Assembly: GCA_947623505.1 (NCBI GenBank)
Contig: CANQGT010000001.1
Coordinates: 1 to 64,000 of the forward strand
From: an uncultured Clostridia bacterium
Lineage (GTDB): Bacteria; Bacillota; Clostridia; Oscillospirales; Acutalibacteraceae
Length of the DNA stretch: 64,000 nt
Direction: 5' to 3'
Within the stretch, counting starts at the first letter, position 1; each line of letters starts with the position of its first letter. Positions 1,695 through 18,422 of this stretch are shown here, piece after piece. A model generated the notes under the pieces. It was given only the letters and a program-made list of their open reading frames with translations. It was not told where the DNA came from and searched no databases. Position numbers and translations under genes: made by a program.

Positions 1695-1720
1695 ATCTTA
1701 CACCACCTTTCTCGTTTCTA

Positions 1721-1749
1721 ATTATATTCTCAAAAATGATAAAAGTCAA
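1721..1749 (-). promoter_or_regulatory. Promoter of the regulator-hydrolase operon
   Basis: On the minus strand, TTGACT (1744-1749) and TATAAT (1721-1726) are separated by exactly 17 bp. The position, about 27 bp upstream of the regulator ATG, fits a vegetative promoter. Confidence 0.75.
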
Positions 1750-1908
1750 GTGGGTAGAACAGAATTCAGAAAAAAGTTGCAGACAGATGTGTTTTTTCCT
1801 GTATATAGAGATTTCATTTCCTGCCATAAGAGATTTCACACCGTTCCGTCAGAAACCACATCTCTGTAAAATATAAGGGTAGGATTTTCAGAGAGCAGGT
1901 GGTAGCTT

Positions 1909-2268
1909 ATGGATAAAAGAAACAACGATTTTGAATTTGACTTTATGCCGATAGGACAGGCGATAAAGGCTGCACGGATCGCCAAAAAGATGACAAGAGA
2001 TCAGCTCGCCGGTATCGTCGATTATGAAGCAAGACACCTTCAAGCTATCGAAAACGAGGGGCAGAAGCCGAGCTTGGAGCTGTTTATTCAGCTTGTTACC
2101 ATGTTCGATGTGTCCGTTGACCAATATATCTTCCCAGACAAGAAAGCAGCGAAAAGTTCTGCCCGCAGACGCTTGGACGCTCTGCTCGACAAACTGGACG
2201 ATAAAGAACTGTCGGTTATAGAAGCAACCGTAAACGGACTATGTAAGGCAAAAGAGCCAGAGGATTAA
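1909..2268 (+). CDS. XRE-family transcriptional regulator
   Basis: This 119-aa protein has an XRE (Cro/CI) helix-turn-helix at about residues 14-70: IGQAIKAARIAKKMTRDQLA, then EARHLQAIENEGQKPSLELF. A short charged C-terminal tail follows. Proteins of this kind are common in Tn1549/Tn916-like elements and usually repress element genes. The ATG follows an AGCAGGTGG ribosome binding site. A terminator hairpin overlaps its stop codon. It is divergent from the 1,191-1,694 regulator and convergent with the CHAP protein gene. Its operator is not identifiable from the sequence alone. Confidence 0.85.
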   Translation: MDKRNNDFEFDFMPIGQAIKAARIAKKMTRDQLAGIVDYEARHLQAIENEGQKPSLELFIQLVTMFDVSVDQYIFPDKKAAKSSARRRLDALLDKLDDKELSVIEATVNGLCKAKEPED

Positions 2269-2282
2269 ACCTCTGGTATTCT
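2257..2282 (+). terminator. Rho-independent terminator of the XRE regulator gene
   Basis: CCAGAGG (2257-2263) pairs perfectly with CCTCTGG (2270-2276) across a 6-nt loop that contains the stop codon. A T-rich stretch follows (TATTCTTTT, then a run of six T further on). Confidence 0.65.
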
Positions 2283-2293
2283 TTTGCCCTTTT

Positions 2294-4078: not shown

Positions 4079-4114
4079 AGAATACCTCCTTTCCCAGAGA
4101 AATTGCGGATACGG

Positions 4115-4900
4115 TCAGACTATCTTTTTGGCTACCACCACAAGCCTGCCATTCTGGGCGGAGTATTCGCAGGTGGACAGCGTGATAAGCCTGTCGCCGT
4201 ATTCTGCGGTCACGCCCGTGTCGTATAAGGCAAGCTCTTTACATTCCGCAACATAGGCGTTAAAGGCTTCCTCGTCCTCCGCATCGACAAAATCATAGTA
4301 GCGGAAGCCCGCAGGACTGTACGCCACGGTCTTGAACACGGCAATAATTTCATACTCTGCGTGTTCCGTAAGCGTATCGAATTGGATCGTTTTGTGTTCC
4401 TCATAGAAGCTCTGGGATTTGAAATCCTCCAAAGCCCCGAACATTTTGCCGCCCTTGATGTGGTGTCCGTAAATGATAAGATTGTCGCTGTCCTCCATGC
4501 TGCAATCCTCTTGGACATACGGTACGCCCAGATCACTGTACGCCTTTTCAAAATTGTGCTTCAGATAAAAATTCGGGTCGTTGGGGGTCTGCATGACAGG
4601 GTAATTGACCGTCGTGCCTGCAATCGAAATCCAACCGACCATATCGGGATTTTGCAGAAACAGCTCCCCATACTCCGCAAGGATCGTCTTTTCCTCGGTA
4701 TAGGGAATGATGGGAACTTCCTCCGGCTGCTCCGCCGCCCGTTCCTGCGCTTCCTCCATTACCTTCGCCATATCCTCAAAGGCTTCCTCCTGCTCGGTTT
4801 GGGCGGAATAGTGGCGATAGATGTGGAAGCAGCAAAATACCGCCGCACCCAACAGGCACACGGCGGCGATCAGACAGATGATTTTCTTGTAATCTTTCAT
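4115..4900 (-). CDS. srtB: Class B sortase
   Basis: This is a 261-aa membrane-anchored transpeptidase. The N-terminal signal anchor is MKDYKKIICLIAAVCLLGAA and onward. The catalytic triad is visible: His in IIYGHHIKGG, Cys in LSTCEYS, Arg in NGRLVVVA. Class B sortases attach surface proteins to peptidoglycan; copies carried on Tn1549-like elements sit with the conjugation genes. The frame is open further upstream, but the ATG at 4,898-4,900 has a GGAAG ribosome binding site and starts right at the signal anchor, so I chose it. It lies between the DUF6075 and CHAP genes as part of the ICE module. Confidence 0.92.
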   Translation of the reverse strand: MKDYKKIICLIAAVCLLGAAVFCCFHIYRHYSAQTEQEEAFEDMAKVMEEAQERAAEQPEEVPIIPYTEEKTILAEYGELFLQNPDMVGWISIAGTTVNYPVMQTPNDPNFYLKHNFEKAYSDLGVPYVQEDCSMEDSDNLIIYGHHIKGGKMFGALEDFKSQSFYEEHKTIQFDTLTEHAEYEIIAVFKTVAYSPAGFRYYDFVDAEDEEAFNAYVAECKELALYDTGVTAEYGDRLITLSTCEYSAQNGRLVVVAKKIV

Positions 4901-4914
4901 AGGCGCTTCCTTTC

Positions 4915-5313
4915 TTAGCGTTGGTAATCCTGCTTGGGAGCTGACAGCTCCCTGCAATATTCGGGGTATCGGACTTTTATCCCTTCCATAAAGTACGGGG
5001 CAAACTCACAGCAGAATAAATCTTCTGGGGTAAAGCTCTTTTCCCGTCCTTCCTCTACATAGTTATTCCAGAGGTTAAAGGCAAGATAGCAGACCTTGAC
5101 CGTGCCGCTCGTCTGCCAACCGCCGTGCATCCCCTCTGGGATAATCAAATCATCTTTGAAGTCGAACATCTGACGGATATTCGCCCTCGTTTCCGGCGCA
5201 ATTCCCATCACATAGAAGAACGCCCTGTGATAGCAGTCGTTGACTCTGCACTGGCTCATCATTTCCAGAAAGAAATCACGGTGAGCGGCAGAGCGGAATT
5301 GGATTGATGGCAT
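4915..5313 (-). CDS. DUF6075-family ICE protein
   Basis: A 132-aa protein of unknown function. Sequence features: RDFFLEMMSQCRVNDCYHRA near the N-terminus, GMHGGWQTSGTVKVCYLAF in the middle, and CEFAPYFMEGIKVRYPEYC near the end. This pattern matches DUF6075 proteins that recur in Tn1549-type elements. The ATG at 5,311-5,313 has a strong AGGAGG site; the longer open frame upstream has none. It ends 14 bp before the sortase start, so the two are probably co-transcribed. No enzymatic motif was recognised. Confidence 0.75.
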   Translation of the reverse strand: MPSIQFRSAAHRDFFLEMMSQCRVNDCYHRAFFYVMGIAPETRANIRQMFDFKDDLIIPEGMHGGWQTSGTVKVCYLAFNLWNNYVEEGREKSFTPEDLFCCEFAPYFMEGIKVRYPEYCRELSAPKQDYQR

Positions 5314-5337
5314 AAAAACACCTCCTTGTAGTTGGAA

Positions 5338-5371
5338 CAAAAAAATAACGCCCACTATATCAGTGAGCGTT
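5338..5371 (-). terminator. Terminator of the DUF4143 ATPase gene
   Basis: Read on the minus strand, an AACGC-x-CACT stem (arms at 5347-5356 and 5362-5371) is followed by a run of seven T. It lies 19 bp after the ATPase stop codon. Confidence 0.7.
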
Positions 5372-5389
5372 ACCGTTTGCCATATTGGT

Positions 5390-6685
5390 TTAGATACAAA
5401 ATGCTGCGTAGAGAGGAACGGTCTTTTTCCCGTCCTCAAAGCCAAAGTTTTTTGCAGAGAGCTTGATGGCGTAATCGGGCTTGTAGGTGTCCATATAGAC
5501 CTTTAAGCTCTTGGCTCTTGTGTTGTCGGCGGATTTGACCTCAATGGGAATGAGCTTGCCCTCCCGCTGAATGACGAAATCAATTTCCGCCCCACGCTCG
5601 GACTCCCAATAATAGGTCTGATAGCCGTTTATGGTGAGCTGCACATTCACATAGTTTTCTGCAAGTCCGCCCTTAAAGTCGTTCAGTTCCTCTACCATGT
5701 AGAGGACATCGTTTGCGGCTAAATCCTTTTTGGCGGCAAGCAGACCCAGATCAGAAACATAAATCTTAAAAGCGTCAATGTCACGGTAGTTTTCCAAAGG
5801 CTTTTTAACCTGTTCTACCTTGAACACCTGCGACACAATGCCGGACAGACAGAGCCATTCGATGGCGTTCTCAAATTCGGAAGCTCGTCCTCCTTTCTTA
5901 ATCAGCTTATATTGAAAACGGGTATTCTTCTTTGAAAGCTGCACGGTGATGTTGTCATAGGCAAGCCGTGTCTTTTTGATCTCGTTCAAGTTGTTGTACT
6001 TACTCATATCGTTGAGATAGCTTGCCAGAATGGTGTCCTGCGTGTGACGCACAAGGATATAATCCTTTGTCTGTGCAAACTGCATGACGCACTCCGGCAT
6101 ACCGCCCACCACAAGATACTGGCGATAAAGCAGCATCGCCGCATCATGCAAAGCGGAAGGTATCGGCGTGTTGGTCTGGAAGGACTTTTTGATCTGCTCT
6201 ACCAGCGCGTCCTCACCCAGCGCAAGCATAAATTCCTCCATATCCATCGGGTAAAGGGTTTTCATATCAACCTTTCCCACGGGAAAAGAGAACTTTGCAC
6301 GGTTTACCGCAACGCCTAAAAGACTGCCCGCCACGATGATGTGATAATCGGGAGCGTCCTCGCAAAAATACTTCAAAGAAGTCAACGCCCGTTCGCAGAG
6401 CTGCACCTCGTCAAAGACGATCAGCGTTTTTTCCTTGACGATGGTTTGCCCTGCGATATGCGACAGAATAGGGATCAGATAATCGGGGCTGATATTTTCA
6501 TCAAAGGTTTCCGAGAGCTTTGGATTGGTTTCAAAGTTGAAATACGCCACATTCTCATAGTGTGTGCGCCCAAACTCCAAAATGGAATAAGTCTTGCCGA
6601 CCTGCCTTGCCCCCTGCAATATGAGCGGCTTGCGGTGTTCGTTTTCTTTCCATGCTTCTAAAAAAGCCATGATTTTTCGGTACAT
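5390..6685 (-). CDS. AAA ATPase with DUF4143 domain
   Basis: The protein is 431 aa. The N-terminal AAA part has a Walker A motif GARQVGKT (about residues 25-32) and a Walker B IVFDEVQL. The C-terminal DUF4143 part contains ERGAEIDFVIQ...IPIEVKSAD, a pattern like the PD-(D/E)xK nuclease core. This family is widespread in anaerobes, often many copies per genome, and its role is unclear; an accessory or defence-like role has been suggested for nuclease-fused ATPases. It is a self-contained unit here, with its own promoter and terminator, inserted between ICE genes. Confidence 0.88.
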   Translation of the reverse strand: MYRKIMAFLEAWKENEHRKPLILQGARQVGKTYSILEFGRTHYENVAYFNFETNPKLSETFDENISPDYLIPILSHIAGQTIVKEKTLIVFDEVQLCERALTSLKYFCEDAPDYHIIVAGSLLGVAVNRAKFSFPVGKVDMKTLYPMDMEEFMLALGEDALVEQIKKSFQTNTPIPSALHDAAMLLYRQYLVVGGMPECVMQFAQTKDYILVRHTQDTILASYLNDMSKYNNLNEIKKTRLAYDNITVQLSKKNTRFQYKLIKKGGRASEFENAIEWLCLSGIVSQVFKVEQVKKPLENYRDIDAFKIYVSDLGLLAAKKDLAANDVLYMVEELNDFKGGLAENYVNVQLTINGYQTYYWESERGAEIDFVIQREGKLIPIEVKSADNTRAKSLKVYMDTYKPDYAIKLSAKNFGFEDGKKTVPLYAAFCI

Positions 6686-6715
6686 AAATGACCCTCCTTT
6701 TCAGAAGTCACTTAT

Positions 6716-6744
6716 AGTATAGCAGATGTTCGTGTAAAAATCAA
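6716..6744 (-). promoter_or_regulatory. Promoter of the DUF4143 ATPase gene
   Basis: TTGATT (6739-6744) and TATACT (6716-6721) on the minus strand have 17-bp spacing. The core and the flanking GCTATACTATA are the same as in the promoter of the AbiE operon at 14,375-14,403. Confidence 0.65.
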
Positions 6745-6833
6745 TGGATTTTCTATGAACATTCTCATTAAATAACACGAATATTTCTGCCTACTTCGCA
6801 CCGTTCGACACAAAGCACCGCAAGCCGCCAGTT

Positions 6834-7375
6834 TTACACCTCCCCAAACTTGGTTGTCATCAGCTTGTAAAGCTCCGTATTGCGTGGGAACTTATTGACA
6901 AAGGGAACAAGGGAGCTGCCCACTTTCAAAAGCCCCTGTCCTGCGCCCACATTGGTGATATAGCTCATCTGAAGGTCGGAGATGTTAAGGAGCTTCGCAA
7001 GCTCGATCCTGTCCGTGGACGCTTGGTTGAGCATGATAATAAATTCGCTGTTGGCAAGCATCGTCCTCGCCGTATGGCTCTGCAAGAGATCGTCTACATT
7101 CTGGGTGATGCCTGTGCAGTACGCCCCGTACTTGCGGACACGCTTCCAGAGGGTGAACAGGAAATTGGCGGAATACTCATGCTGAAACAGCAGATAGATC
7201 TCGTCAATGAAAATAAAGGTGTTGCGCCCTTTGGCTCTGTTCTGGGTAATGCGGTTTAAGATGCTGTCCAGAACCACAAGCATACCGATGGGCTGTAACT
7301 GCTTGCCCAAATCCAGAATGTCATAGCAGATAAGGCGGCTCTTGGTGTCCACATTGGTGTGCTTGGCAAACTTGT
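6834..7375 (-). pseudogene. VirB4-like conjugation ATPase, C-terminal fragment
   Basis: About 180 residues survive from the C-terminus of a VirB4/TraE-type ATPase, the motor of ICE type IV secretion. Visible are the Walker B region NTFIFIDEIYLLF, the ITQNVDDLL segment and the ending VNKFPRNTELYKLMT. Full-length members are about 780-800 aa, so the Walker A half is missing. The frame is open upstream only as far as HKFAKHTNVDTKSR, where the sequence changes to an unrelated ICE gene in another frame. The joint is near 7,375. It cannot work as a motor, so this element is unlikely to transfer by itself. Confidence 0.85.
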
Positions 7376-7795
7376 GATCTCGTCCATCCCGTATGCGCTG
7401 AGATTAGCAGCGGTATGGAATGTGATATAGCTTTCAAGGCTCTGTTTGAGCGCTGTGCCTTGATTGCTCTGGGATGCCGTTACGGGGTTCCACCATGTTG
7501 CGCTGTTCGGCGTCAGAGAGCTGTCCAAACTTAGCCCCATGCCTTGCCCGATGGCGATACAGTCCGCTTTGATTGCTTCGATGTCAAATTCATAGTCGTA
7601 TGCGGATTTCGGCTGTGTTTCTTCGGGCGTGGGCTGTGGCTGCGTTTCCATAGGCGGCTGCGTCTGGGCAGGCGGCGGGGTGGTTTCCGCAGGCGGCGTT
7701 TCTTTGGGTGTTTCCGTTGGAGCTTGAACAGGCTGTGTTTCCGCAGGCGGCTTTACGCTCGGTGCGGCAGTCGGCTCATTGCTCTGGGAAGGCTT
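7376..7795 (-). pseudogene. Proline-rich ICE protein, internal fragment
   Basis: This fragment reads as a Pro/Thr/Glu-rich linker ([18 protein letters not shown] and similar repeats) followed by a folded part, YDYEFDIEAIKADCIAIGQG...TASQSNQGTALKQSL. Such a layout is typical of secreted or lipoprotein-like ICE proteins, but I cannot name it. Both ends are missing: the left joint fuses it out of frame to the VirB4 fragment, and the right joint to the ParA fragment. No start codon or ribosome binding site belongs to it. Confidence 0.65.
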
Positions 7796-7929
7796 GCCTG
7801 TGCGTCGGCGTCAATGAGCAAAACTTTTTTGCCCTGCTTTGCCAGGCCCACTCCCAGATTGACCGCCGTTGTGGTTTTTCCTACGCCGCCTTTCTGGTTG
7901 GTCAGAGCAATCACTTTGCAGTTTGACAT
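7796..7929 (-). pseudogene. ParA-like partition ATPase, N-terminal fragment
   Basis: The ATG at 7,927-7,929 has a GGAGG site, and the protein begins [20 protein letters not shown], the deviant Walker A of ParA/Soj ATPases. It continues to [11 protein letters not shown]. After that the frame runs into unrelated DNA and stops. About 45 of the usual 250-270 residues remain. ParA genes are standard in Tn1549-type elements, where they act in maintenance. The break point is close to 7,795. Confidence 0.85.
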
Positions 7930-7998
7930 AGTTGCGTCCTCCTTTCGCATAGATTTAGCCACTTTGTCAAGGTGGCTATGTAACCGTACCAGAGAACG

Positions 7999-8039
7999 CA
8001 AAAAAGCCGCCTACTCTTAATGGATAAGAATAAGCGGCT
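7999..8039 (-). terminator. Terminator after the small ICE protein gene
   Basis: On the minus strand AGCCGC...TTCTTA pairs with TAAGA...GCGGCT (arms in 8005-8039), followed by a T run (TTTTTT). It lies 15 bp beyond the stop of the 59-aa gene. Confidence 0.65.
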
Positions 8040-8053
8040 CATGGCGGTGTGCC

Positions 8054-8233
8054 TTAAACATATTCAATTTTCATTTTCTTGGCGGGTGCGCCTGCGGTCT
8101 TGCAAATAAGCTCGTCCACGCAGTCCGTATATCTGCCTTGCCGGAGCAGTACATTTTTCAGCTCCACAAGGCTATGTAGCAACAGCGTCCTTTCGTGGCT
8201 GTCCAGATAGATGTGATAGGTTGGCTCTTTCAT
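8054..8233 (-). CDS. Small ICE protein of unknown function (59 aa)
   Basis: An intact small gene with a strong GGAGGTG site 6 bp before its ATG (8,231-8,233). The product begins MKEPTYHIYLDSHERTLLLH and ends KKMKIEYV. Short proteins of this type sit near the ParA genes of Tn1549-like elements. It has no recognisable domain. It follows the truncated gene fragment at 8,248-8,476 and has its own terminator. Confidence 0.75.
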   Translation of the reverse strand: MKEPTYHIYLDSHERTLLLHSLVELKNVLLRQGRYTDCVDELICKTAGAPAKKMKIEYV

Positions 8234-8247
8234 TCCTGCACCTCCGC

Positions 8248-8476
8248 TTATGCAACATCGGGAACGGAAACGAAAATGTTGATCGTCCGCTCGTTCCCAC
8301 GCTGTACTACCGCAGGATGTTCCGAAAAATCAACTTGGTTGTTTTCGCCATACCGCAAGACCTTATCCGAGGTCGTAAAGGTATGTACCAGAAAGCCAAA
8401 ATAAGGGGCTTGTCCGTCATTTTGGAATTGTGGAACATTTTCGGTGCTTCTCTGGGTCCAGTTTTCAAAAATAGCG
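8248..8476 (-). pseudogene. C-terminal fragment of an unidentified ICE protein
   Basis: The frame reads AIFENWTQRSTENVPQFQND, continues through APYFGFLVHTFTTSDKVL and ends in RTINIFVSVPDVA just before the small ICE gene. It has the look of coding sequence and ends 15 bp before the next ATG, as expected inside an ICE operon, but it has no start. Its upstream side is cut off right at the end of the NurA-like gene, which marks one edge of the defence cassette. The parent protein is not recognised. Confidence 0.55.
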
Positions 8477-8480
8477 CAGT

Positions 8481-9818
8481 TCAGTGTATTATTCTTTCTT
8501 GAGCAAATGTTTTTAGTAAATCTGAACTTGGATGGTCAGCAAGTGACACCAATTTATTAGCTAGTACAACTGGAACAAGAGAGTTATAATACAAATCGCA
8601 TTTTAACGCTGTAATATTGTGCAAAACCACATCAATATTAATATAATCGTCCATTTGTGGCTCTACCTTAGCTTGAACATTAGGAATGGTGGCCACATAT
8701 ACATTGTTGTATTCAGATTTAAAAATAACCTTATGGCCATAGTAAGATGAGCTTGCATATGGTTCATTGTTTTTTTCATATCCTGGAATAATATACTTAT
8801 AAATATAATTGTTCCCAAGTAATAGAATTTGTTTTGGTAACATTTTTTGAGACACCTGTTCTGCATGCTCTACAAAAGAACCACTTTTTTCGAGTCCCAC
8901 TAAATAAATTGCGTAGTGTTGATTTAAATAAGTCATCAATTTACGCATCGGTTTATGAAGATTCGCAGTTTGGCCAAAAAACGCAAGAGGGCCATCCTTT
9001 ACAAATAATGTTTGTGACAGCATACTTGGTCGTATATTTAGCATTTGCTTAATAAGATAAACAATTATTATCTGTTCAATTGATGTGGTCAAATATCCAA
9101 GTATCCCGCCCGCACCAAGTTCATTATCGATAATCTCATGAAGCCGTAAAATATCTGTAAGATATATTTTTTCACCACAATGTGGACATGCAAAAGTATA
9201 ATCGTTAAGGATATCTTTCTTCTGTATATCTACCCCCGCATTACAATGAGGGCAGGTTGCTAAGTGCCAAGTATTACTGATATTAGAAGACGCATATTCT
9301 TCAAAAACGAGCCATTTCAACGCATCCAAGAATCCGTTTTTTTCTGGTTGAGAAGCGAAAAATTCGTAAATTGTCCTTCTAACTGTTGAAACAAAATCCG
9401 CTTCGCCATTAAGTGAGATGCCTTTAGTTGGAACAACAAGTTTTATTCTTTGAATATTTTGAAGTTTTGAAAAATCATCTGGATCGATGAAGGGCTTCTC
9501 CTTTAAATCAATTAAATCTTGATGCTTAAAAAAAAGCGCTCCAAATTGAAAAAAAGCAATTGTAGATGACGGAAAGTCCTCTTTTACAAAAATATTTGTG
9601 TAACCGCCATCTATAGTGATAATATTCTTAATCGGATTTTTATCGAGTTCTCCAAGCACATGAAGCGCCATATCTTTGTCATTTATTTCCTCATGATATG
9701 GTGGTATTTTGCATTTTGATAAAAAAGATTGCACCTCTGTATCATTGATAATATTCGTGTGTGAGGTCTTACTTGCTCGCTCGAAAGGCTTGTTTGAATA
9801 ATCGTTTCCATAGCTCAT
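8481..9818 (-). CDS. NurA-domain nuclease with zinc ribbon
   Basis: This is a 445-aa protein of the NurA family, 5'-3' nucleases that work in complex with HerA hexamers. NurA motifs seen are NIITIDGGYTN (Asp70), LFVKDGPLAF (about 271-280, Asp275), VGLEKSG (307-313), and a C-terminal block around YYNSLVPVVLANKLVSLA. A CPHC...CPHC zinc ribbon (Cys 189, 192, 211, 214) is inserted in the middle, which not all NurA proteins have. The ATG at 9,816-9,818 follows GGGAGAG and lies 4 bp after the HerA stop codon; a longer frame would run into HerA. It is the last gene of the AbiE-MTase-HerA-NurA operon. Nuclease activity is inferred from the family. Confidence 0.85.
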   Translation of the reverse strand: MSYGNDYSNKPFERASKTSHTNIINDTEVQSFLSKCKIPPYHEEINDKDMALHVLGELDKNPIKNIITIDGGYTNIFVKEDFPSSTIAFFQFGALFFKHQDLIDLKEKPFIDPDDFSKLQNIQRIKLVVPTKGISLNGEADFVSTVRRTIYEFFASQPEKNGFLDALKWLVFEEYASSNISNTWHLATCPHCNAGVDIQKKDILNDYTFACPHCGEKIYLTDILRLHEIIDNELGAGGILGYLTTSIEQIIIVYLIKQMLNIRPSMLSQTLFVKDGPLAFFGQTANLHKPMRKLMTYLNQHYAIYLVGLEKSGSFVEHAEQVSQKMLPKQILLLGNNYIYKYIIPGYEKNNEPYASSSYYGHKVIFKSEYNNVYVATIPNVQAKVEPQMDDYINIDVVLHNITALKCDLYYNSLVPVVLANKLVSLADHPSSDLLKTFAQERIIH

Positions 9819-9822
9819 TTTA

Positions 9823-11823
9823 TTACTCTCCCTGTGCTGTAAATCTGTCAATTTGTACTGGAACAATAAAGGCATTAGAATACGTTTTCATTCTAATAAA
9901 GCCCTTATCGCTACCTGAACTATATCGAATTAATCCATCACAAAAATCGGCAAAATCATAAAACTTTCTGATTTCCTTTAGTTCATCGTCGTTGTTCAAA
10001 TGAGCGATAAACCAATTCTGCGTGTTTTTCAATATATTTGAGGATATCGAACTGACTTCCTGTGTTGCATAGATTAAGCCTATATTAAGCTTTGCACCTT
10101 CTTTTGCAATTCGGTTATAAATTCCACTTAAATCCTTATCATCCTTTTTGGGAAATAGATTATGCGCCTCTTCAAAATAAAATTGAATAAAGTTATTAGG
10201 GCGGTTGTTTACAAAATTATCCATAGCATTTCTGAATACGCTCAAACATATTTTATCGGCAAAGGTCTGCTGAATAACGGGATCACCCTGCGACAAATCA
10301 ATTATAACAATATTCCCCTTCCTAAGCTGGTCGACAATGTCAACCTCAAACGGGGAGTCGGATTGAACAGTATGATAATCTTTCAGAGGAACAAGTTTTC
10401 TATATCCCGACAAACTGGCTGCCCCAGTCAAGTTGCGCTTTCTTGTTAAAAAAACAAGTAAAGCCTTCAAATCTTCATCTATCCAATCATGTCCGTTTTT
10501 GCTACGATAATTAGTAAAAAACGGGTCATCTTGGTGGTCAGCAACCCAAGTCCAAAATGCAAGGGCATCATCCAAACTGATTCCCACTGAAGGATCAATT
10601 GTTCGTCCTTCAACAATACAATCATTAATATCCTTGTTTCCTGTGAACTTCACTTTATGATTATTAGGCACGGTGAAACCCGCCATTTTTAGGCAGCATT
10701 GATATACTGCAGCTTTACGGGCCCATCTGGTATGAGCAGAACTAAACTTATCTGTTGGCTCCTCTAAATCTACTGCAGTAAAGCTCCTTATGTAATCCCC
10801 ACTCTCTTCTTCGAGCAGACTACAAATCAATTCAAAGCCCACTGATATTTCATTGTAGAAATTCACCTTTAATACCTTGAACCCTGGTTTATCAAGAACG
10901 CTGTATCGTGTAGTGATTTGGAAATATTTTTCAAATATAGCCGTTCCCTCGTCCTGTAGATTAGCATTTGCATATTCACCATTCATATCAAATATGATTT
11001 GACCGACTTTGTACTTCGGTATGCCATCATCTTTGAATTGCTTTACATTGTCAATAGCTGACGATGTGGTATTAACACAAATATTTTCTGCTTTGTTGCT
11101 TATTTCTGTAGTTGCTTCAATTACTTTTTTTACCGTATTGGATTTTCCTGTTCTTGTCATACCAAATAAAGCTGTACGCTTACCTAAAAAATCACTTGGA
11201 CTGACATACACAGGAACATCTGGATGTTTATCTTGAAAACGGCGGCTGGAACTATAACGGATCTTTCCTATTCTATAATCCGTACTGCATCCAATAGAAG
11301 TGTTTCCATCTCTGAAATTAACAATTTGCTCAAGAATTTCACCGACTGGTTTATATGCAACATAATTATGAGCACTATAATAGTTTTCCACATCGGCACC
11401 GAACTGAATTTTTCCATTTTCATCACGATAGAAAGTGCCAAGAATTCTACATTCAAGACCAGAAAAGCTGAAGGTATATTTTGTGAAATCATCAAGCTGA
11501 TTCTTTTTGCCCGAAGTTTTCAAATTATCTTTATAGTATTCAACCATAGAAGCAATTACATCATTATCCGTCGGTAATTTTGCAGGTTTTATCGCACGCA
11601 ACAATAAACATTCGTCAACATCATCGTTCTCGTTTTCATAAAATGCAAGTAAAAAAGTGCCTTGTGGGATACCCCCGACTTTTTCTTTCCAAGCGTCAGT
11701 TATCAATAAGTATGCCTTATCAAAATCAAGATAATAAGGTCTTCCAATAAATAAGTCAGTTTTCTTAGCCTCGCTAAAAATATCTACCATTGCCAGATTT
11801 TTTAATTCCTGTGTCAAACTCAT
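9823..11823 (-). CDS. HerA-type DNA translocase ATPase (DUF87)
   Basis: The product is 666 aa. After an N-terminal region (residues 1-200, including a HAS-barrel-like beta-rich part) comes a FtsK/HerA ATPase: Walker A GMTRTGKSNT at 221-230, FDMNGEY at 278-284, Walker B FYFEEAHNLF at 548-557, and a sensor ATQEVSS at 586-592. Between 330 and 500 there is a long helical insertion. HerA proteins form hexameric rings that pump double-stranded DNA and feed a nuclease. The ATG overlaps the methyltransferase stop (ATGA), and the NurA gene follows after 4 bp, so the ATPase and nuclease are almost certainly made together. Confidence 0.92.
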   Translation of the reverse strand: MSLTQELKNLAMVDIFSEAKKTDLFIGRPYYLDFDKAYLLITDAWKEKVGGIPQGTFLLAFYENENDDVDECLLLRAIKPAKLPTDNDVIASMVEYYKDNLKTSGKKNQLDDFTKYTFSFSGLECRILGTFYRDENGKIQFGADVENYYSAHNYVAYKPVGEILEQIVNFRDGNTSIGCSTDYRIGKIRYSSSRRFQDKHPDVPVYVSPSDFLGKRTALFGMTRTGKSNTVKKVIEATTEISNKAENICVNTTSSAIDNVKQFKDDGIPKYKVGQIIFDMNGEYANANLQDEGTAIFEKYFQITTRYSVLDKPGFKVLKVNFYNEISVGFELICSLLEEESGDYIRSFTAVDLEEPTDKFSSAHTRWARKAAVYQCCLKMAGFTVPNNHKVKFTGNKDINDCIVEGRTIDPSVGISLDDALAFWTWVADHQDDPFFTNYRSKNGHDWIDEDLKALLVFLTRKRNLTGAASLSGYRKLVPLKDYHTVQSDSPFEVDIVDQLRKGNIVIIDLSQGDPVIQQTFADKICLSVFRNAMDNFVNNRPNNFIQFYFEEAHNLFPKKDDKDLSGIYNRIAKEGAKLNIGLIYATQEVSSISSNILKNTQNWFIAHLNNDDELKEIRKFYDFADFCDGLIRYSSGSDKGFIRMKTYSNAFIVPVQIDRFTAQGE

Positions 11824-12800
11824 AATAAAGTCTCCTTCGTTTTAATATTTGAATTCAGAGATGGTTCTTCAAAACGAATAGCCGATTGCTTGCCATAATC
11901 CATGTTAGCCTCTATGCTTATCCATTGGCGTTTTAGCTTTTCAGCACAAAAACCTGTTGTATTACTACCGCCAAATGGGTCTAACACTAAATCCCCCTCA
12001 TCAGTTAAAAACTCAATAAAGAAGCTCGCAAGCTCAAGTGGCATTCTTGCTGGATGGGGCACAATTTTTCGCTCTTTGCATGTCTTAGTAAAGAAGTCAT
12101 TTGATTTTGTATTTGAGATACTAAACATGGAATAAGGCAAACGCAACTCTTTATCTTCATCAATTTGCTCCAATTCTAAAACGTTATGTGATATACTGCC
12201 ATGATTATCAGTTAAGAACCCTTTATCGCTTATCACATGCTCCGAAGGCCGTTTCCCAGAGTTAAATTTCCCAGACTTGAGCAGTTTTTTCATGCTCTTA
12301 CTATATGGTCGCAATACCCTATGATTATCTGCTTTTGGATAGTCCGAATTAGATATCCACCATACATGTGTAAAGCTGTCAATCGCTCTTATTCTATGAA
12401 TTGTTACCCATTGAGCAGGCGACGGCAATCTGGCAGGATTATAACAAATAAATTCTTGACACAATCTAAGTCCCGCCTTTTCATTATTTACAAAACTAAG
12501 AAGGCTATTTAAATGGAGGAGTGACTGAACAGGACGGTTTTTCTCCCACGCATTTCCCATTTCAATTACTATTGAACCGTTCGGAGCTAATACACTCGAA
12601 AATAATTCCGCTAATCCCGTAAACCATTCTAAATATTCTTCCCCACTAAGATTTCCATATTGCTTTTTGTTATTTAAAGGAAAGGGGGGAGAAGTAAGTA
12701 TTAATTGTACTTTCTTCTGTAGATCTAATTCTTTGATTGCTTCTTCACATTTTCCAATATAATATTTTCCAAGTTCTGTGCTATATAATAAATTACTCAT
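11820..12800 (-). CDS. Site-specific DNA methyltransferase (N4-cytosine or N6-adenine)
   Basis: This 326-aa enzyme has the catalytic motif IV TSPPF at residues 36-40 near the N-terminus and the SAM-binding motif I DPFGGSNTT at 274-282 near the C-terminus, the order of the beta class. TSPPF/Y is more often seen in N4-cytosine enzymes, but N6-adenine is possible. The middle part (about 90-230) would hold the target recognition region. Its start overlaps the AbiEii end by 8 bp, and its stop overlaps the HerA start. No restriction endonuclease gene of a standard type is beside it; the HerA-NurA pair takes that place. Recognition sequence unknown. Confidence 0.9.
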   Translation of the reverse strand: MSNLLYSTELGKYYIGKCEEAIKELDLQKKVQLILTSPPFPLNNKKQYGNLSGEEYLEWFTGLAELFSSVLAPNGSIVIEMGNAWEKNRPVQSLLHLNSLLSFVNNEKAGLRLCQEFICYNPARLPSPAQWVTIHRIRAIDSFTHVWWISNSDYPKADNHRVLRPYSKSMKKLLKSGKFNSGKRPSEHVISDKGFLTDNHGSISHNVLELEQIDEDKELRLPYSMFSISNTKSNDFFTKTCKERKIVPHPARMPLELASFFIEFLTDEGDLVLDPFGGSNTTGFCAEKLKRQWISIEANMDYGKQSAIRFEEPSLNSNIKTKETLL

Positions 12801-13707
12801 TTTCTTTTACCACTTTCCAATCACATTCTATTGAGTGCCACTGTTTTTGCCACTCTTCTTCATTCACAATCGCATCAAACACAGGTTCAAGAAAAGATTG
12901 AATTTCCTTAATCACGGTAGAAAATTCAAGCGTGTTGTCCTTGATATTTTTCAAAAAATACCGCCACCGCTTCTGCATATCCTCGTCATCGGCAAGTGCA
13001 ACAATACGCTGAAAACTATCCTTGTCGTAGGGGGTGCCACGGTGCTGCAAGGTTTCAAAGATCGCTTTTTGCAGCCTTGCGCCATCAAAGTCAAAAGTCC
13101 TTGCCAGATAATAAATATCGTAAAAATCTTTCATGCGGCCTGTCAGCTCAAAGCGTTGCAGGATAGCATCATACTTTTCGGCTATGGTGCTTTCAAGGGA
13201 ATAGGTTTTGATTACAGGCGCTTCAAAGTCGGGAAGCTGCGTATGGATCGTGCGTTGTTCCGCTTTGGGTACAATCACATCGCCCACGCCGATGTCCACA
13301 TTAAAAGGCACACGGACATTTTTGATCTGCCCAATGATCTGTGCGCTGATCCCGTGGTATTTCCTCTGCGGAGAGATTTCCTCAAACCCCTTGGCCGTCA
13401 TAAAAATATAGTCGTTGCCGGTTGGAGTGGCAATAATAGCTCCAATCAAATCCTTCACTTCTTCCACGGAATTTGAAAAGCCACGCAAAAGGAAATCCGC
13501 ATCAATCGTCGCCCGGCTTTCAAAGTTGGTCAGTGTATAGATGAACAAGCCGCCTTTCAGTACCAGAAACTCATCATATCCAGATTTCGATAATTTCCTT
13601 AAAAATTCCTCCTGCACAAAAAGCTGCAAGCATTGCTGATAGCTAATGCCGGATGCTTTGGCTTTGTTCCGAAGTTTTGCAAGAACCGATGCTGCCTGAT
13701 CTGCCAT
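12793..13707 (-). CDS. abiEii: AbiEii toxin-family nucleotidyltransferase
   Basis: The protein is 304 aa with the DUF1814/AbiEii nucleotidyltransferase signature: LVLKGGLFIYTLTNFESRAT followed by IDADFLLRG, then FNVDIGVGD, then AEKYDAILQR...RMKDFYDIYYLA. This family includes type IV toxin-antitoxin toxins and tRNA nucleotidyltransferases that block growth during phage infection. The ATG at 13,705-13,707 shares a base with the AbiEi stop (TAATG); a GTG 9 bp further upstream is a less likely start. The downstream methyltransferase gene overlaps its 3' end, so the toxin gene is fused into the defence operon rather than free-standing. Confidence 0.9.
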   Translation of the reverse strand: MADQAASVLAKLRNKAKASGISYQQCLQLFVQEEFLRKLSKSGYDEFLVLKGGLFIYTLTNFESRATIDADFLLRGFSNSVEEVKDLIGAIIATPTGNDYIFMTAKGFEEISPQRKYHGISAQIIGQIKNVRVPFNVDIGVGDVIVPKAEQRTIHTQLPDFEAPVIKTYSLESTIAEKYDAILQRFELTGRMKDFYDIYYLARTFDFDGARLQKAIFETLQHRGTPYDKDSFQRIVALADDEDMQKRWRYFLKNIKDNTLEFSTVIKEIQSFLEPVFDAIVNEEEWQKQWHSIECDWKVVKENE

Positions 13708-14315
13708 TACAACCACACTCCAATCAAGTCCCTTACTCTTTTCTGCACACGCAGTTCCTTTGCGTATAGCATGAGATTGGGAATGTTTTTCTTTGTATCA
13801 TTCACATATCCTTGAATTGCCTTGTTAAAAATCTCTTTGTCCATCTTGTTCATATTTCGCAACACATCGCAAATGGTACGGTCACGGTCATAAATTCGGA
13901 CTTTGTTAAAATCTATTTCGCCGGTTGTCTCTCCAAGCGGGAGTAAAGAAGGCTCCATTCGATAGACTTTTATAAAAGGATAATCCATTTTTGTGCGCTC
14001 TTTTGAAGCATTCTTATTCAGTGCGAGATTCCATTCCGCAGAGTTACGGTCACTGTATCTGTAATAAAACAATGCGGTTTCCATACACAAAACAGCATCG
14101 GGGAAAAGGCGGTTGATAATCAGAACTTCGCTGCCTATCGTATCTTCCACCCAATGGTAGTACCCCCTTTTAATCTTCTCGATCAAGCCTTCTTTCAACA
14201 TGAGCTGAATATCCGCATAATACAGCTTTTCCGCCTGTAGCTCGGCAGTCGTCATGATATATTGATAATCCGAGAAAATATTTCTAAGCGCACTTATCGC
14301 ATTCAAATCCAACAT
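13707..14315 (-). CDS. abiEi: AbiEi-family antitoxin / transcriptional repressor
   Basis: A 202-aa protein. The N-terminal winged helix (about residues 10-75) contains YIMTTAELQAEKLYYADIQL and LIEKIKRGYYHW, typical of AbiEi antitoxins; the C-terminal part has VRIYDRDRTICDVLRNMNKM, also typical. AbiEi proteins neutralise AbiEii and repress their own promoter by binding inverted repeats. The ATG at 14,313-14,315 follows a GAGGTGA site; a longer frame upstream overlaps the promoter and is rejected. An inverted repeat that fits an operator lies 21 bp upstream. First gene of the five-gene operon. Confidence 0.9.
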   Translation of the reverse strand: MLDLNAISALRNIFSDYQYIMTTAELQAEKLYYADIQLMLKEGLIEKIKRGYYHWVEDTIGSEVLIINRLFPDAVLCMETALFYYRYSDRNSAEWNLALNKNASKERTKMDYPFIKVYRMEPSLLPLGETTGEIDFNKVRIYDRDRTICDVLRNMNKMDKEIFNKAIQGYVNDTKKNIPNLMLYAKELRVQKRVRDLIGVWL

Positions 14316-14335
14316 CTGCTCACCTCTATACGAAA

Positions 14336-14362
14336 CCAACCGAAAGCAAATCCATCGGTTGG
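14336..14362. promoter_or_regulatory. Inverted repeat, probable AbiEi operator
   Basis: CCAACCGA (14,336-14,343) and TCGGTTGG (14,355-14,362) form a perfect 8-bp inverted repeat with an 11-bp centre. It lies between the -10 box and the AbiEi ribosome binding site, where a bound repressor would block transcription. AbiEi autoregulation through inverted repeats is known for the family; binding here is inferred. Confidence 0.65.
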
Positions 14363-14374
14363 GTGGTTTTATAT

Positions 14375-14403
14375 AGTATAGCACATTTTTGGCGAAAAAT
14401 CAA
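14375..14403 (-). promoter_or_regulatory. Promoter of the AbiE-MTase-HerA-NurA operon
   Basis: TTGATT (14,398-14,403) and TATACT (14,375-14,380) with 17-bp spacing on the minus strand. The IS element is inserted 8 bp upstream of the -35 box (target duplication at 14,412-14,420), leaving the promoter intact. Confidence 0.75.
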
Positions 14404-14483
14404 CCGTAGTTAATCACTCCCAGCGGTGAAGAATAAAATCGATGTTACCGCTTTTCGATCCTGGCATTTCTTCCATGGTGGAG

Positions 14484-14565
14484 TTATCCACATCTGTGAT
14501 GGATTGGCGAAACTGTTATCCACATCGACAGGCTTCAAATGTCCTCTTTTTCATTTTTGTGGATA
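14484..14565. promoter_or_regulatory. Cluster of DnaA-box-like sites inside the IS
   Basis: TTATCCACA occurs at 14,484-14,492 and at 14,516-14,524, and TGTGGATAT (an 8/9 match to the reverse box) at 14,558-14,566. All are in the non-coding left part of the IS. Function is unknown; a DnaA site near the outside end of IS50 is a known precedent. Confidence 0.5.
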
Positions 14566-14618
14566 TTCTGTTGTTTTTTTTCTTCCATTCCATCACCACC
14601 TGTGTTACAATTACCTTG

Positions 14619-15998
14619 TTATTCAAGATACACCGTGGTGTATCGCTGAATGTAGAGTACATCTTCATCTGTTACTGTTTGGCTTCGGAAACTTTCCAGT
14701 AACCTTGAAGATGTATTCTTTTTGCTCTGTCCGGTCTCTTTTATCAATGGGTTCCATGCCACATACAGCTGCATCAGAATATCTGCGATCTGCGTCAGCA
14801 GGTAATGGTTCTTCATCGCGTTGCTGTCCCGGCTGTTCAGATGTTCAATCCGGTACAGGCCATGCTTCTGGTTATTGAACCCTACGTTCTCGATCTTCCA
14901 TCGGCCACGGCCGGCTTCTACCATCTCCGCCAGATTCCGCTTTGTCAGTTCTATATCCGTCAGCCAACAGAAGCGGGACTTTTTTTCCGCCTCTCCCTGT
15001 TTCCCTGTATACTCATACTCATATACATGTACCGTTTCCTCTTTCCCTGCCGTTTCTCCCACATGGTTGGCATACCGCCCTGTCCCCATCTCTTTCCCGA
15101 TATTTTTTACGGCCGTGCATCCGCCGCCCTCCTGTATCCAACGGAAACTCTCCCCGATTGCTGGCTGCCTGGTATCTTTCTGGGTGAAGATATACCGCCA
15201 GCCATTCTCACGGCAGATCCGCATCATTGGCTCTGTCGCGTACAGCGCGTCCCCCTGCAGGCAAATCGGCAGCCGCGGATATTCCTTCTTCAGCCGCGCC
15301 AGAAGCCTTTTCGCTGCATTGATCTCGCAATCCTGTTTCTCCACATCTTCCGATTCATTCTCTATGAATTCCGTCCCCAGGCTGATCACCAGGTTCTCCC
15401 CAAGCACCAGCTTCGCTTCCAAAACTTTATGGTAATATCGCTTTCTCTCTTTCCCCTCTGCATCCTTCACCGTCTCACACAGGCAGTTCTCACAATGCTT
15501 TTCACGGAAATAAAACAGACCGGTCCCATCCAGGATCACACGCCAATATTTCCTCAGCAATCTGGCCCGGTAGAATTGTTTCATCCTCAACAGGGAAGCC
15601 ACCAGCTTCCTGCGTATCTCAGACAGGCATTGGGGTGATAATCTTTCCAGGTAATAATTCAGGGTATCATAATGCGGCATTTCCTCCAATCCCCGGTCGC
15701 CTGACAGCAGCCGCAACGTATCAATGCAGGTCTGCTCATTAAATTTTTCTTCCATCTGGCGCATACTTTCCACAGAGCAGACATTTTTTAATATCCCCAT
15801 GTAAATAAGGTCCGTCTGCGTATAGGTGACATAGGATCCATGCCTTGGATCCTCCATTTCATTGATCCAGTCAGGAAGGTTTTTAAAAAAATGATTCTGG
15901 ATCATCGCGAAATCTACGATTCCACGGTCTTTTTTCTTCTTTTCACGCTTATGTGATTTCCGGTTCCAGTCACAGCGTTTCTTCATCTTCTTTTTCAT
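14619..15998 (-). CDS. IS4-like DDE transposase
   Basis: The product is 459 aa. The basic N-terminus (MKKKMKKRCDWNRKSHKREK) is a likely DNA-binding tail. The DDE catalytic triad can be placed at VILDGTGLFYF (Asp), CLQGDALYATE (Asp) and WKIENVGFNNQKHGLY (Glu with the following Lys). The stretch GWRYIFTQKDTR between the second Asp and the Glu is typical of this transposase group. The ATG follows an AGGAGGG site. The frame is intact with no shift, and the element has matching ends, so it may still be active. The exact IS family is uncertain. Confidence 0.85.
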   Translation of the reverse strand: MKKKMKKRCDWNRKSHKREKKKKDRGIVDFAMIQNHFFKNLPDWINEMEDPRHGSYVTYTQTDLIYMGILKNVCSVESMRQMEEKFNEQTCIDTLRLLSGDRGLEEMPHYDTLNYYLERLSPQCLSEIRRKLVASLLRMKQFYRARLLRKYWRVILDGTGLFYFREKHCENCLCETVKDAEGKERKRYYHKVLEAKLVLGENLVISLGTEFIENESEDVEKQDCEINAAKRLLARLKKEYPRLPICLQGDALYATEPMMRICRENGWRYIFTQKDTRQPAIGESFRWIQEGGGCTAVKNIGKEMGTGRYANHVGETAGKEETVHVYEYEYTGKQGEAEKKSRFCWLTDIELTKRNLAEMVEAGRGRWKIENVGFNNQKHGLYRIEHLNSRDSNAMKNHYLLTQIADILMQLYVAWNPLIKETGQSKKNTSSRLLESFRSQTVTDEDVLYIQRYTTVYLE

Positions 15999-16155
15999 AG
16001 GATCCCTCCTGTGCGTAAAATTTCTTCTTTCATTTTACACGAACAGAAAGGATCCTGCACGAAATCTTGCTATTTTATTGCGTAAAATGTTTATTCTTCA
16101 AAGCTGAATCACTCCAATTTAAATTCATCAATAGGGTGGTTTCGTATAAGAAAAT

Positions 16156-16186
16156 GGCCTGCTTGTCCACTCCAAACAAACAGGCC
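16156..16186 (-). terminator. Hairpin terminator after the truncated gene at 16,195
   Basis: GGCCTGCTTG (16,156-16,165) pairs with CAAACAGGCC (16,177-16,186), nine of ten positions matched. Read on the minus strand it is followed by ATTTTCTT. It lies 9 bp after the stop codon of the fragment at 16,195. Confidence 0.55.
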
Positions 16187-16194
16187 GTTTCCTT

Positions 16195-16418
16195 TTATTC
16201 AAATGTCGAATCAAATCTTAGGGATGCTATGGCATATAGGTTTATAGTCCTTTTTGTATCGCCAATCTCAATAGAATAAGGCTTTTCGGCGTTTTTTGCG
16301 TTCTTTCGTTCATCGTATTTACTCACTCTCTCGAAGGTCGAAAAGCTATGTATCGGAAAACCAATCGTATTATGCTCGTCCTCAAAAACGGTAATCGGAA
16401 CATTATCGGGGCTTCTGT
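16195..16418 (-). pseudogene. C-terminal fragment of an unidentified accessory protein
   Basis: The last about 74 residues of a minus-strand gene remain (AYRSPDNVPITVFEDEHNTI, ... KPYSIEIGDTKRTINLYAIA, ending FDSTFE) followed by a terminator hairpin. Upstream the same frame runs on by chance, antisense through the manganese catalase gene, so the 182-codon open frame is a chimera. The parent protein is not recognised. It belongs to the accessory side of the junction near 16,418. Confidence 0.5.
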
Positions 16419-16848
16419 AGGCACGGAGGAACTCGGCCATCTTGAAATGGTTGGCTCGATAGTTCATCAGCTTACAAGAAATCTTACCGAAAAGCAGATC
16501 GAGGACAGCGGCTTTGCGCCGTACTTCGTAGACCACACAACGGGCGTTTATCCCACGGCGGCAAGCGGATTTCCGTGGAGCGCGGCGTCTATGCAGGTAA
16601 AGGGTGACCCGATAGCCGACCTCAACGAGGATCTCGGCGCCGAACAGAAAGCCCGCGTAACTTACGACAACATTCTGCGGCTTGTTGACGATCCCGACGT
16701 GATTGAGCCGATAAAATTCCTGCGCGAGCGCGAGGTAGTCCATTATCAGAGATTCGGTGAGGGGCTCAGACTGCTTACCGACAAGCTGAACAGCAAGAAC
16801 TATTATGCGTTTAACCCCGGATTTGACAGAATGCCGAAAGAAAAATAA
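16418..16848 (+). pseudogene. Manganese catalase / CotJC-like protein, N-terminally truncated
   Basis: From VGTEELGHLEMVGSIVHQL onward the frame is a typical manganese catalase: metal-binding Glu and His in GTEELGHLEM, then DHTTGVYPTAASG, QVKGDPIADL, EQKARVTYDNILRLVDD and REREVVHYQRFGE. The normal N-terminal 60-70 residues, including the first metal-ligand helix, are replaced by unrelated accessory sequence (KNGNRNIIGAS). An ATG at 16,348 is in frame, but it has no good ribosome binding site, and the protein would lack the first half of its di-manganese site. I infer the gene was cut by insertion of the mobile region; its 5' part may lie left of this window. Confidence 0.8.
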
Positions 16849-16869
16849 AAATCAAAATATATCTGTTTT

Positions 16870-17019
16870 GGTATGGCGGCTGCGCAAGCGGCTGCTTATT
16901 TTTTCGCTTAAATAAAACTTTTGCGGCGATTTTCACTCAATATCGATTATTGAAATAAGCAATGATATAATGGCGCTGTAAATAATTCTTAAAGGCGAAA
17001 ATATGGATTTCGGCATACA
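16870..17019. repeat. Direct repeat copy 1 (150 bp), duplicated intergenic region
   Basis: This stretch matches 19,217-19,365 closely over its whole length. It holds the terminator hairpin of the catalase gene (16,876-16,905: stem around a GCAA loop, then TTATTTTTT), a degraded copy of the alpha-galactosidase promoter (TCGATT where copy 2 has TTGATT, then TATAAT), the ribosome binding site and the first codons ATGGATTTCGGCATACA. After that it diverges. The rest of 17,020-17,153 holds only an AT-rich leader with a TATAAT at about 17,111. Confidence 0.85.
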
Positions 17020-17153
17020 GTATCTTAATCATATTTATATGATATTTTATCAATCTGCCCTTGTCAATAAGAATGATATAATCGGAAATGTTTTTTGAAA
17101 TGTAATGTGTTATAATGCAGTCACACTTGCAGGTGTTAGGAAAGGAGGAAACA

Positions 17154-18422
17154 ATGGATAACCGCAAAATAATTCAAAATATTCTTGATTATATTGAGAA
17201 TAACCTCAAGGCTGAAATCAATATCAATGAACTGTGTGATATGGCGGGATATTCCTATGTGCATTTTTGCAGACTGTTTTCATATTATATCGGTATATCT
17301 CCGAGTGAATACATTAGGAGAAGAAGATTAATTTATGCTGTTTATGATATGTCAAACGGAATGACCAAGGTTGATATTGCGCTGTCTTATGGCTTTGAAA
17401 CTCATGCCGGATTTTACAAGGCTTTTAAGCGTGAGTTCAATTGTTCACCCTCCGAATTCATCAAATCTTATAAAGGCGAAAAGCCCTATAAGATTAACAT
17501 TTTGCAGGAGGAACATATTATGATTTCAAAAAATAAAATGCAAAAACTGCTTCATCATTGGAATTTACAGAGCGACTGCATTGGAAATATTTACAATGAA
17601 AATACAGGCAGGCAAAGTGAAAATACTTACCATATCGGTGATGATTATATAATCAAATTTTCTGCTAATTACGGCAGTATAAAGAATAGTATCAGCATAA
17701 CAAACAGCCTCGCAAAATCAAATTTACCTGTTGCCGAAATCATTAAAACCGATGACGGTTCCGATTATCTGCAGGACGGCGAGCTTTATTTTATCGTAAC
17801 GAAACGAATCAATGGCAGTCAGCTGAAATGCGAGGATATTTTCAAACATACCGATATTGCATATCAGATAGGCAGTAACATAGCAAGGCTTCACAAAGCG
17901 CTGAAAACGTTTGACGAAAGCAATTATAACCGAACTGACATTTTGGGTGATGTTAAATCTGCATTGCCGAAGGTTCAGAATTTGGTCAAATTGAGTGACG
18001 GTTTTCTTGAAGATTTCAGCGCAATTTTTGATAAACTGCCGGCGCAGATTATCCACCGTGACATAAATCCGTCAAATATGATTTTTGACAAGGGTAAATT
18101 CAAGGGCTTTATCGACTTTGATTTAACAGAGGTTAATGTAAGAATATTTGATATATGCTACTGTGCTACGGCAATACTTTCAGAATGTTTTAATAATGCC
18201 AATATTGATAAAAGCAAGTGGCTTGAAATATTTTATTATCTTGTAAAAGGTTATGAGCGTATTACTCCGCTGTCCAAATATGAAAAGCAGGCTTTGCCTT
18301 ATGTGATTTATTCCATTCATATTATCTGTATTGTCTATTTCAGTCAGTATGATAAATTTGATAACCTGACAAAAATAAATATGGATATGCTGAAATGGAT
18401 TGTTAATGAATTAAAAGTATAA
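17154..18422 (+). CDS. AraC-type HTH fused to an aminoglycoside phosphotransferase-like kinase
   Basis: The 422-aa product has two parts. Residues 1 to about 105 are a double AraC helix-turn-helix (INELCDMAGYSYVHFCRLFS, then DIALSYGFETHAGFYKAFKR). Residues about 125-422 are an APH/choline-kinase fold with catalytic loop IIHRDINPSNMIF (about 298-310) and metal-binding GFIDFDLTEV (about 317-326). The first unit could sense or modify a small molecule with the kinase part, or the protein could be a resistance-type kinase that regulates itself; the substrate is unknown. The ATG at 17,154 has an AAGGAGG site. It lies inside the segment bounded by the 150-bp repeats, so it was probably gained by transfer. 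A strong terminator follows. Confidence 0.85.
   Translation: MDNRKIIQNILDYIENNLKAEININELCDMAGYSYVHFCRLFSYYIGISPSEYIRRRRLIYAVYDMSNGMTKVDIALSYGFETHAGFYKAFKREFNCSPSEFIKSYKGEKPYKINILQEEHIMISKNKMQKLLHHWNLQSDCIGNIYNENTGRQSENTYHIGDDYIIKFSANYGSIKNSISITNSLAKSNLPVAEIIKTDDGSDYLQDGELYFIVTKRINGSQLKCEDIFKHTDIAYQIGSNIARLHKALKTFDESNYNRTDILGDVKSALPKVQNLVKLSDGFLEDFSAIFDKLPAQIIHRDINPSNMIFDKGKFKGFIDFDLTEVNVRIFDICYCATAILSECFNNANIDKSKWLEIFYYLVKGYERITPLSKYEKQALPYVIYSIHIICIVYFSQYDKFDNLTKINMDMLKWIVNELKV

Follow-up and report, generated by a model that had tools for sequence, protein, structure and literature searches.

A recurring methyltransferase-HerA-NurA gene unit, probably a methylation-gated restriction system, in a Clostridia contig and in distant genomes

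The DNA analyzed here, in the following called the window, comprises the first 64,000 nucleotides of contig CANQGT010000001.1 (assembly GCA_947623505.1) from an uncultured Clostridia bacterium of the Acutalibacteraceae. At positions 8481-14384, five tightly packed minus-strand genes encode AbiEi, AbiEii, a DNA methyltransferase (MTase), a HerA-type ATPase and a NurA-like nuclease, and in an earlier note on this DNA all five had been proposed as one candidate anti-phage system. From comparison with other genomes, however, the recurring unit is the three-gene set MTase-HerA-NurA, which probably represents a methylation-gated restriction system. The three genes and their predicted products are:

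11820-12800, minus strand: beta-class DNA methyltransferase of the M.PvuII type (PF01555, 7e-33)
9823-11823, minus strand: HerA-type hexameric DNA translocase (Walker A GMTRTGKSN, Walker B YFEEAH; PF01935)
8481-9818, minus strand: putative NurA-family nuclease with a CxxC/CxxC zinc-ribbon-like insert (frame open to 9875; relatives match PF09376)

The arrangement of co-directional genes overlapping or lying 4 bp apart, as described in the earlier note, was borne out by the open reading frames and by Pfam and PADLOC matches. The AbiEi and AbiEii frames overlap, the AbiEii stop and the MTase start overlap by 8 nt, MTase and HerA by 4 nt, and the gap from the HerA stop to the NurA ATG amounts to 4 nt. 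The MTase and HerA assignments made there hold as well. Besides its Pfam match, the MTase aligns over its full length with M.PvuII (1boo, E = 5e-68) and shows the motifs TSPPF (motif IV) and DxFGGSNTT (motif I), and it likely produces N4-methylcytosine as M.PvuII does. Avoidance of CAGCTG was considered and rejected; the ratio in the window is 0.21, but this is only the 14th lowest value of 64 six-base palindromes, and the scarcity is uninformative because many palindromes are low. A search of the genus with the MTase gave matches in 15 of 60 genomes, which beyond the window's own genome were weak and partial (best E = 4e-9). HerA matches PF01935 at 5e-13 (50.1 bits versus a cut-off of 23.2), and its Walker A and B motifs are invariant or nearly so in the 25 family members. 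The nearest solved chain is TdpA (8wet, E = 2.3e-23; next chain at 6e-12), with a partial match covering the Walker A region and the C-terminal part of the ATPase.

The NurA claim of the earlier note can be upheld by way of the protein family. The window protein itself was not matched by any NurA model in Pfam, PADLOC or NCBIfam, yet relatives match PF09376 over the full length (L047 at 2e-21, L049 at 5e-10 and L046 at 7e-9). Two more exceed the cut-off (L018 at 5e-5, L044 at 1e-4), L012 falls just below it, L014 matches weakly, and PF09376 gave no match for L015, L069 and the NurA-like protein of a Vibrio phage. The start codon is the ATG at 9818, the corresponding methionine being the first residue in all 26 aligned members. 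Numbered from this start, D70, D222, E248, D275-G-P-L and K311 are conserved in 24 to 26 of the 26 members, most of which also possess the CxxC/CxxC insert. Hence, we take the protein encoded at 8481-9818 as a very divergent NurA, with nuclease activity predicted from its family.

The nearest relative of the unit resides in Faecalibacterium gallinarum (L016), where MTase, HerA and NurA are encoded consecutively at 91, 90 and 83% identity without AbiE genes, and where the DNA match (80% identity) spans window positions 12803 to 8489, its limits coinciding with the MTase start codon and the NurA stop codon. The same order is kept in a Chloroflexi metagenome-assembled genome (L017; 64, 61 and 49% identity for MTase, HerA and NurA, respectively) and in Leptolyngbya (L018; 59, 55 and 45%), and the shared core of these three loci consists of just the three genes. 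Compared with F. gallinarum, the ratio of nonsynonymous to synonymous substitution rates (dN/dS) of HerA and NurA is about 0.024 at saturated dS, indicative of strong purifying selection, and the dN of the MTase is 0.06. Altogether, the unit is found in bacteria, one archaeon, plasmids and phages and also on large chromosomal contigs. The search for the three-gene neighborhood suggested in the earlier note has thus been answered by its recurrence across phyla and domains, and because of this recurrence the association is more than chance.

Among viruses, two Vibrio cyclitrophicus phages (L089 and L090) encode an integrase, HerA and NurA together with a D12 MTase in convergent orientation; the annotation of one phage splits HerA into two reading frames. 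These are the only carriers among 50,697 phage records, so that viruses do carry the unit, albeit rarely. A virus-centered origin was rejected, as no relative was confirmed when IMG/VR was scanned with alignments of NurA and of HerA. E. coli showed no match to the Vibrio phage unit at the DNA level. Within the window's family, a HerA search of 300 genomes gave 9 with matches, only the own genome and G200 being close relatives. Individual copies show peculiarities. In a Deferribacter plasmid (L014), an IS200/IS605 element with TnpB (4126-7924) lies inside the HerA gene. Directly after NurA, genes for proteins of 878-888 and 272-288 residues follow in L046 (10370-13824), L067 (9980-13464) and L068 (10419-13948); this pair is a UvrD helicase and a PD-(D/E)XK nuclease in L046, with which the other two are equated by size and position only.

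The association of the MTase with HerA-NurA was assessed blindly at 17 loci that had been found with HerA alone (in the 300 genomes) or with the NurA alignment (in 398, 292 and 251 genomes). Query genomes were excluded, as were two loci with decayed NurA and no HerA or MTase found in the region (G525 and G526), and a weak match of 33 residues (G808), while two loci with a broken gene were kept (L043 with partial MTase and HerA, L070 with NurA in two reading frames). At 16 of these 17 loci, an MTase is the immediate neighbor of HerA-NurA. At the exception, L068, about 3.5 kb separate the pair from a type III MTase that is accompanied by a restriction gene of its own, and about 9 kb from an MTase of the D12 class. 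Over all 27 tabulated loci, window included and L090 left out as a near-copy of L089, the MTase is adjacent at 23, arranged as MTase-HerA-NurA (14), HerA-NurA-MTase (5), with convergent MTase (3) or with divergent MTase (1); the remaining four are L068 and three cyanobacterial plasmids.

In the controls, this adjacency is almost absent. Of seven further HerA genes in the window's family, none has an MTase as immediate neighbor; two of these loci are islands with an MTase several genes off, and at others NPPY-type proteins are encoded. Likewise, none of 20 ordinary NurA loci, drawn from 41 matching among 61 genomes, matched any of three MTase profiles, representing those three classes only, within flanks of about 1.5 kb. 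Of 30 PF01935 loci, one (L119) is the cassette itself, and 2 of the other 29 have an MTase within the flank. Larger regions were inspected for 6 of these 29; both MTase-bearing loci and a third hold a second arrangement of NurA-like, HerA and MTase genes (L124 at 7624-17949, L122 at 3204-11143, L121 at 1371-5760), in which an SPPY MTase and a NurA-like protein of 385 residues accompany a HerA of a second subfamily. Since a NurA-like gene is present there, the two control loci extend the association and do not contradict it, provided that the 385-residue protein is a NurA, which matched PF09376 at 0.009 in one of four cases and not at all in the other three. DrmA-DrmB is found beside this set at L124 and DrmD at L122, and these sets are possibly DISARM variants with a HerA-NurA engine.

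Three MTase classes share one HerA-NurA scaffold: the M.PvuII-like class, the D12 class (PF02086) and a motif-I-first SPPY class matching PF01555 out of order. In a HerA plus NurA tree of 24 rows, from which L014 and L043 (HerA) and L070 (NurA) are left out, the MTase class changes at least three times, with the PvuII type forming one clade, D12 taking part in three changes and SPPY in two; the placement of two D12 rows is unsure because of their long branches. HerA distances closely follow NurA distances (r = 0.87 and 0.93), and in the D12 class MTase and HerA distances correlate at r = 0.52 (p = 0.034, 8 loci). Together with those in the PvuII-type class (see below), we read these relations as co-inheritance of the MTase with HerA-NurA, with occasional swaps. 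Such exchange of the MTase class, as in restriction-modification systems, argues for a corresponding role of the unit, and strong purifying selection, wide spread and carriage on plasmids and in phages next to an integrase suit a function in defense or competition.

Assuming methylation-gated restriction, the MTase would methylate its own sequence in host DNA, in the window probably yielding N4-methylcytosine, and a HerA hexamer would form a complex with NurA and pump double-stranded DNA into this nuclease. Unmarked incoming DNA would be engaged and shredded, whereas marked DNA would be spared, either because the methyl mark stalls or excludes HerA-NurA or because the MTase doubles as recognition subunit. 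The sparing of self DNA is proposed by analogy with TdpABC, in which phosphorothioate protects self DNA while TdpAB attacks unmarked phage DNA, the phosphorothioate reportedly stalling or excluding the motor-nuclease. A similar division of labor had been suggested in the earlier note; its MTase and HerA-NurA parts gain support from the conserved unit, the MTase exchange and the phage carriage, its AbiE part does not, and a role against phages is what we infer from this context.

Several observations weigh against this interpretation. The cassette is rare, with NurA-alignment matches in only 10 of 398, 4 of 292 and 8 of 251 genomes, with the query genomes and one weak match included. When the 26 family members were compared with 20 ordinary NurA proteins by hhalign, the probability was about 1%, and the window nuclease is thus very divergent from these. 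The NurA profile also found no PDB match and hence no TdpB relative, in a library for which the presence of a TdpB chain is not established. Moreover, MTase and HerA distances are uncorrelated across all eight beta-class (PvuII-type) loci (r = 0.10, p = 0.33). The correlation vanishes because the MTase of L065 is unrelated within the class and encoded on the other strand; at the seven loci without L065, r is 0.87 (p = 0.004). Finally, the cyanobacterial plasmids L011, L012 and L013 carry a close HerA-NurA pair (62 and 49% identity) without adjacent MTase, and PF01555 and PF02086, the two families searched, match nowhere on these plasmids, the chromosomes lying outside this search. In the place of the MTase before HerA, an 82-residue XRE-type regulator resembling the controller proteins known from restriction-modification is encoded (L011, 5659-5907; L012, 5655-5903; L013, 5658-5906). 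This regulator and the kinship to MTase-bearing loci suggest that in the hosts of these plasmids the MTase has been lost or is located elsewhere.

The MTase-free copies could also be accounted for by HerA-NurA being a machine for DNA-end resection or for maintenance of plasmids or integrative and conjugative elements (ICEs), with the MTase as an orphan that protects the mobile element against restriction by the host. The ordinary HerA-NurA machinery functions in DNA repair, several copies of the unit are on plasmids, and remnants of conjugative elements lie near the operon in the window. An orphan MTase, however, need not stay adjacent, yet it does so at 16 of 17 loci compared with 0 of 7 and 0 of 20 in the controls; other copies are found on large chromosomal contigs and in phages, and in the Chloroflexi genome G697 an ordinary NurA exists apart from that of the cassette. 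Such a resection or maintenance machine is an unlikely explanation.

Somewhat less likely still is a system of five genes with AbiE as its integral abortive-infection arm or addiction module. In the window, these features precede the MTase gene:

12793-13716, minus strand: AbiEii nucleotidyltransferase toxin (PF08843 at 7e-45, PADLOC at 7e-91), outside the recurring unit
13707-14315, minus strand: AbiEi antitoxin/repressor (frame open to 14384; PADLOC at 2e-67), outside the recurring unit
14336-14362, no strand assigned: inverted repeat CCAACCGA-11-TCGGTTGG between the promoter-like site and AbiEi, candidate AbiEi operator
14375-14403, minus strand: TTGATT-17-TATACT, a promoter-like site whose second hexamer is preceded by TG (motif match)

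Adjacent AbiEi and AbiEii genes, the latter with a nucleotidyltransferase domain, are characteristic of an AbiE type IV toxin-antitoxin, and by domain the pair looks intact. AbiEi, matching PF13338 below the cut-off of 25 (8.5e-5, 23.0 bits), probably starts at an internal ATG near 14315, as its PADLOC match begins at residue 29. In favor of a five-gene system, all frames are on one strand and overlap or lie within 4 nt, including the 8-nt overlap of AbiEii and MTase, and a single promoter-like site plus inverted repeat precedes AbiEi. The single promoter postulated in the earlier note is accordingly plausible, albeit such sites are no commoner than in shuffled sequence (23 matches in the region versus a mean of 21.0, sd 4.4). 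The inverted repeat is a weak operator candidate; its AAAYCAACCG element occurs twice in the window versus 0.44 expected, and 8 of 100 shuffles reach two. Against this grouping, phmmer with the window proteins, a single-sequence search that could miss divergent AbiE, found AbiEi and AbiEii at none of 25 other loci, and none is annotated at the Vibrio phage locus either, giving 0 of 26. Because of this absence and because homology to F. gallinarum begins at the MTase start, AbiE lies outside the conserved unit; the earlier inclusion of AbiE is not supported, and five genes as a conserved unit are rejected. AbiEi and AbiEii rather look like a local addition, a separate toxin-antitoxin pair, which may regulate or stabilize the operon in this strain. 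Since AbiE is directly upstream without gaps, the whole operon could be subject to AbiEi autoregulation.

Hardly probable is a derivation of the cassette, as a degenerate or minimal form needing partner genes elsewhere, from multi-gene systems of the DISARM or MADS kind, which likewise employ methylation and HerA-like motors. The DrmA-DrmB or DrmD genes beside the second HerA subfamily set at two loci and a match of HerA to PADLOC mad8 (2e-12) might point to it, but DrmA/B or other MADS genes are not present beside the window cassette, and L016, L017 and L018 share just the three-gene core.

In the window, a DDE transposase gene (14619-15998) is found directly upstream of the promoter-like site. 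On the other side, mobile-element remnants adjoin the operon at 2294-8001, comprising a CHAP hydrolase (2294-4078), a sortase (4115-4957), a TraG P-loop fragment (6834-7352) and a ParA-like fragment (7753-8001, the latter assigned by eye). Farther off, a type II-A CRISPR locus at 22179-31601 encodes Cas9 (27663-31601), Cas1 (26767-27642) and Csn2 (25786-26460) and has an array of some 50 units repeating every 65-66 bp.

For the MTase-HerA-NurA unit, a PADLOC run on the locus (PADLOC-DB 2023) and searches in an open-access library gave no named system with this gene set, as the earlier note had surmised; PADLOC-DB 2023 has no model for this NurA either, and preprints and subscription papers were outside the scope. 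In the passages considered from PMC6102401, PMC10853773, PMC10855626, PMC11291478, PMC11514479 and PMC5448004, the cassette is not described; an earlier prediction in print is possible. A bolder reading, nearly as likely as not, is an unnamed restriction-modification class of bacteria, archaea and phages, a base-methylation counterpart of TdpABC, whose engine might be paired in turn with MTases of the N4-cytosine and N6-adenine types and might read methylation through the MTase it travels with, related engines having been incorporated into DISARM-like loci. If true, an ancient HerA-NurA repair engine would have been turned into a restriction machine obtaining its specificity from an exchangeable methylase, linking DNA-end resection, classical restriction-modification, the phosphorothioate Tdp system and DISARM and raising the question of how one motor-nuclease is gated by chemically different marks. 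The compact three-gene cassettes of L016, L017, L018 and the Vibrio phages are directly testable.

Among known systems, type II restriction-modification of the PvuII type resembles the cassette in an MTase alignable over its full length, but the partners here are an ATP-driven translocase and NurA and not a restriction endonuclease, a cognate one not being found beside the MTase, where only HerA, NurA and AbiEi/AbiEii are encoded. With the HerA-NurA pair of end resection, the cassette shares the succession of HerA and NurA as well as family members matching Pfam NurA, whereas it differs by the added DNA MTase, absent near the 20 ordinary NurA genes, and by a very divergent NurA with zinc-ribbon-like insert. 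A HerA motor serves defense in SIR2-HerA and DUF4297-HerA pairs (PMC11514479, PMC11291478). In contrast to these, the effector of the cassette is NurA and an MTase is present, and its HerA is only weakly similar (PADLOC at most 75 bits; NCBIfam 45 versus a cut-off of 800). DISARM and DndFGH exemplify a "HerA capture" in which methylation or another modification is combined with HerA-type ATPases (PMC10853773). DISARM genes indeed adjoin the second HerA/NurA-like/MTase set, whereas DrmA/B/D or DndF/G/H genes are not present at the window cassette, and PADLOC gave no Drm match for the five proteins (for the MTase, among the best 25 of 58 matches). In TdpABC, a modification gene is likewise combined with a motor and a nuclease, and its TdpA is nearest to the cassette HerA among solved chains (8wet, 8wfd, 8y1k). 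In the place of a phosphorothioate-making gene, which Pfam did not reveal among the five proteins, the cassette has an MTase, and its self-mark would be base methylation by exchangeable MTases instead of phosphorothioate.

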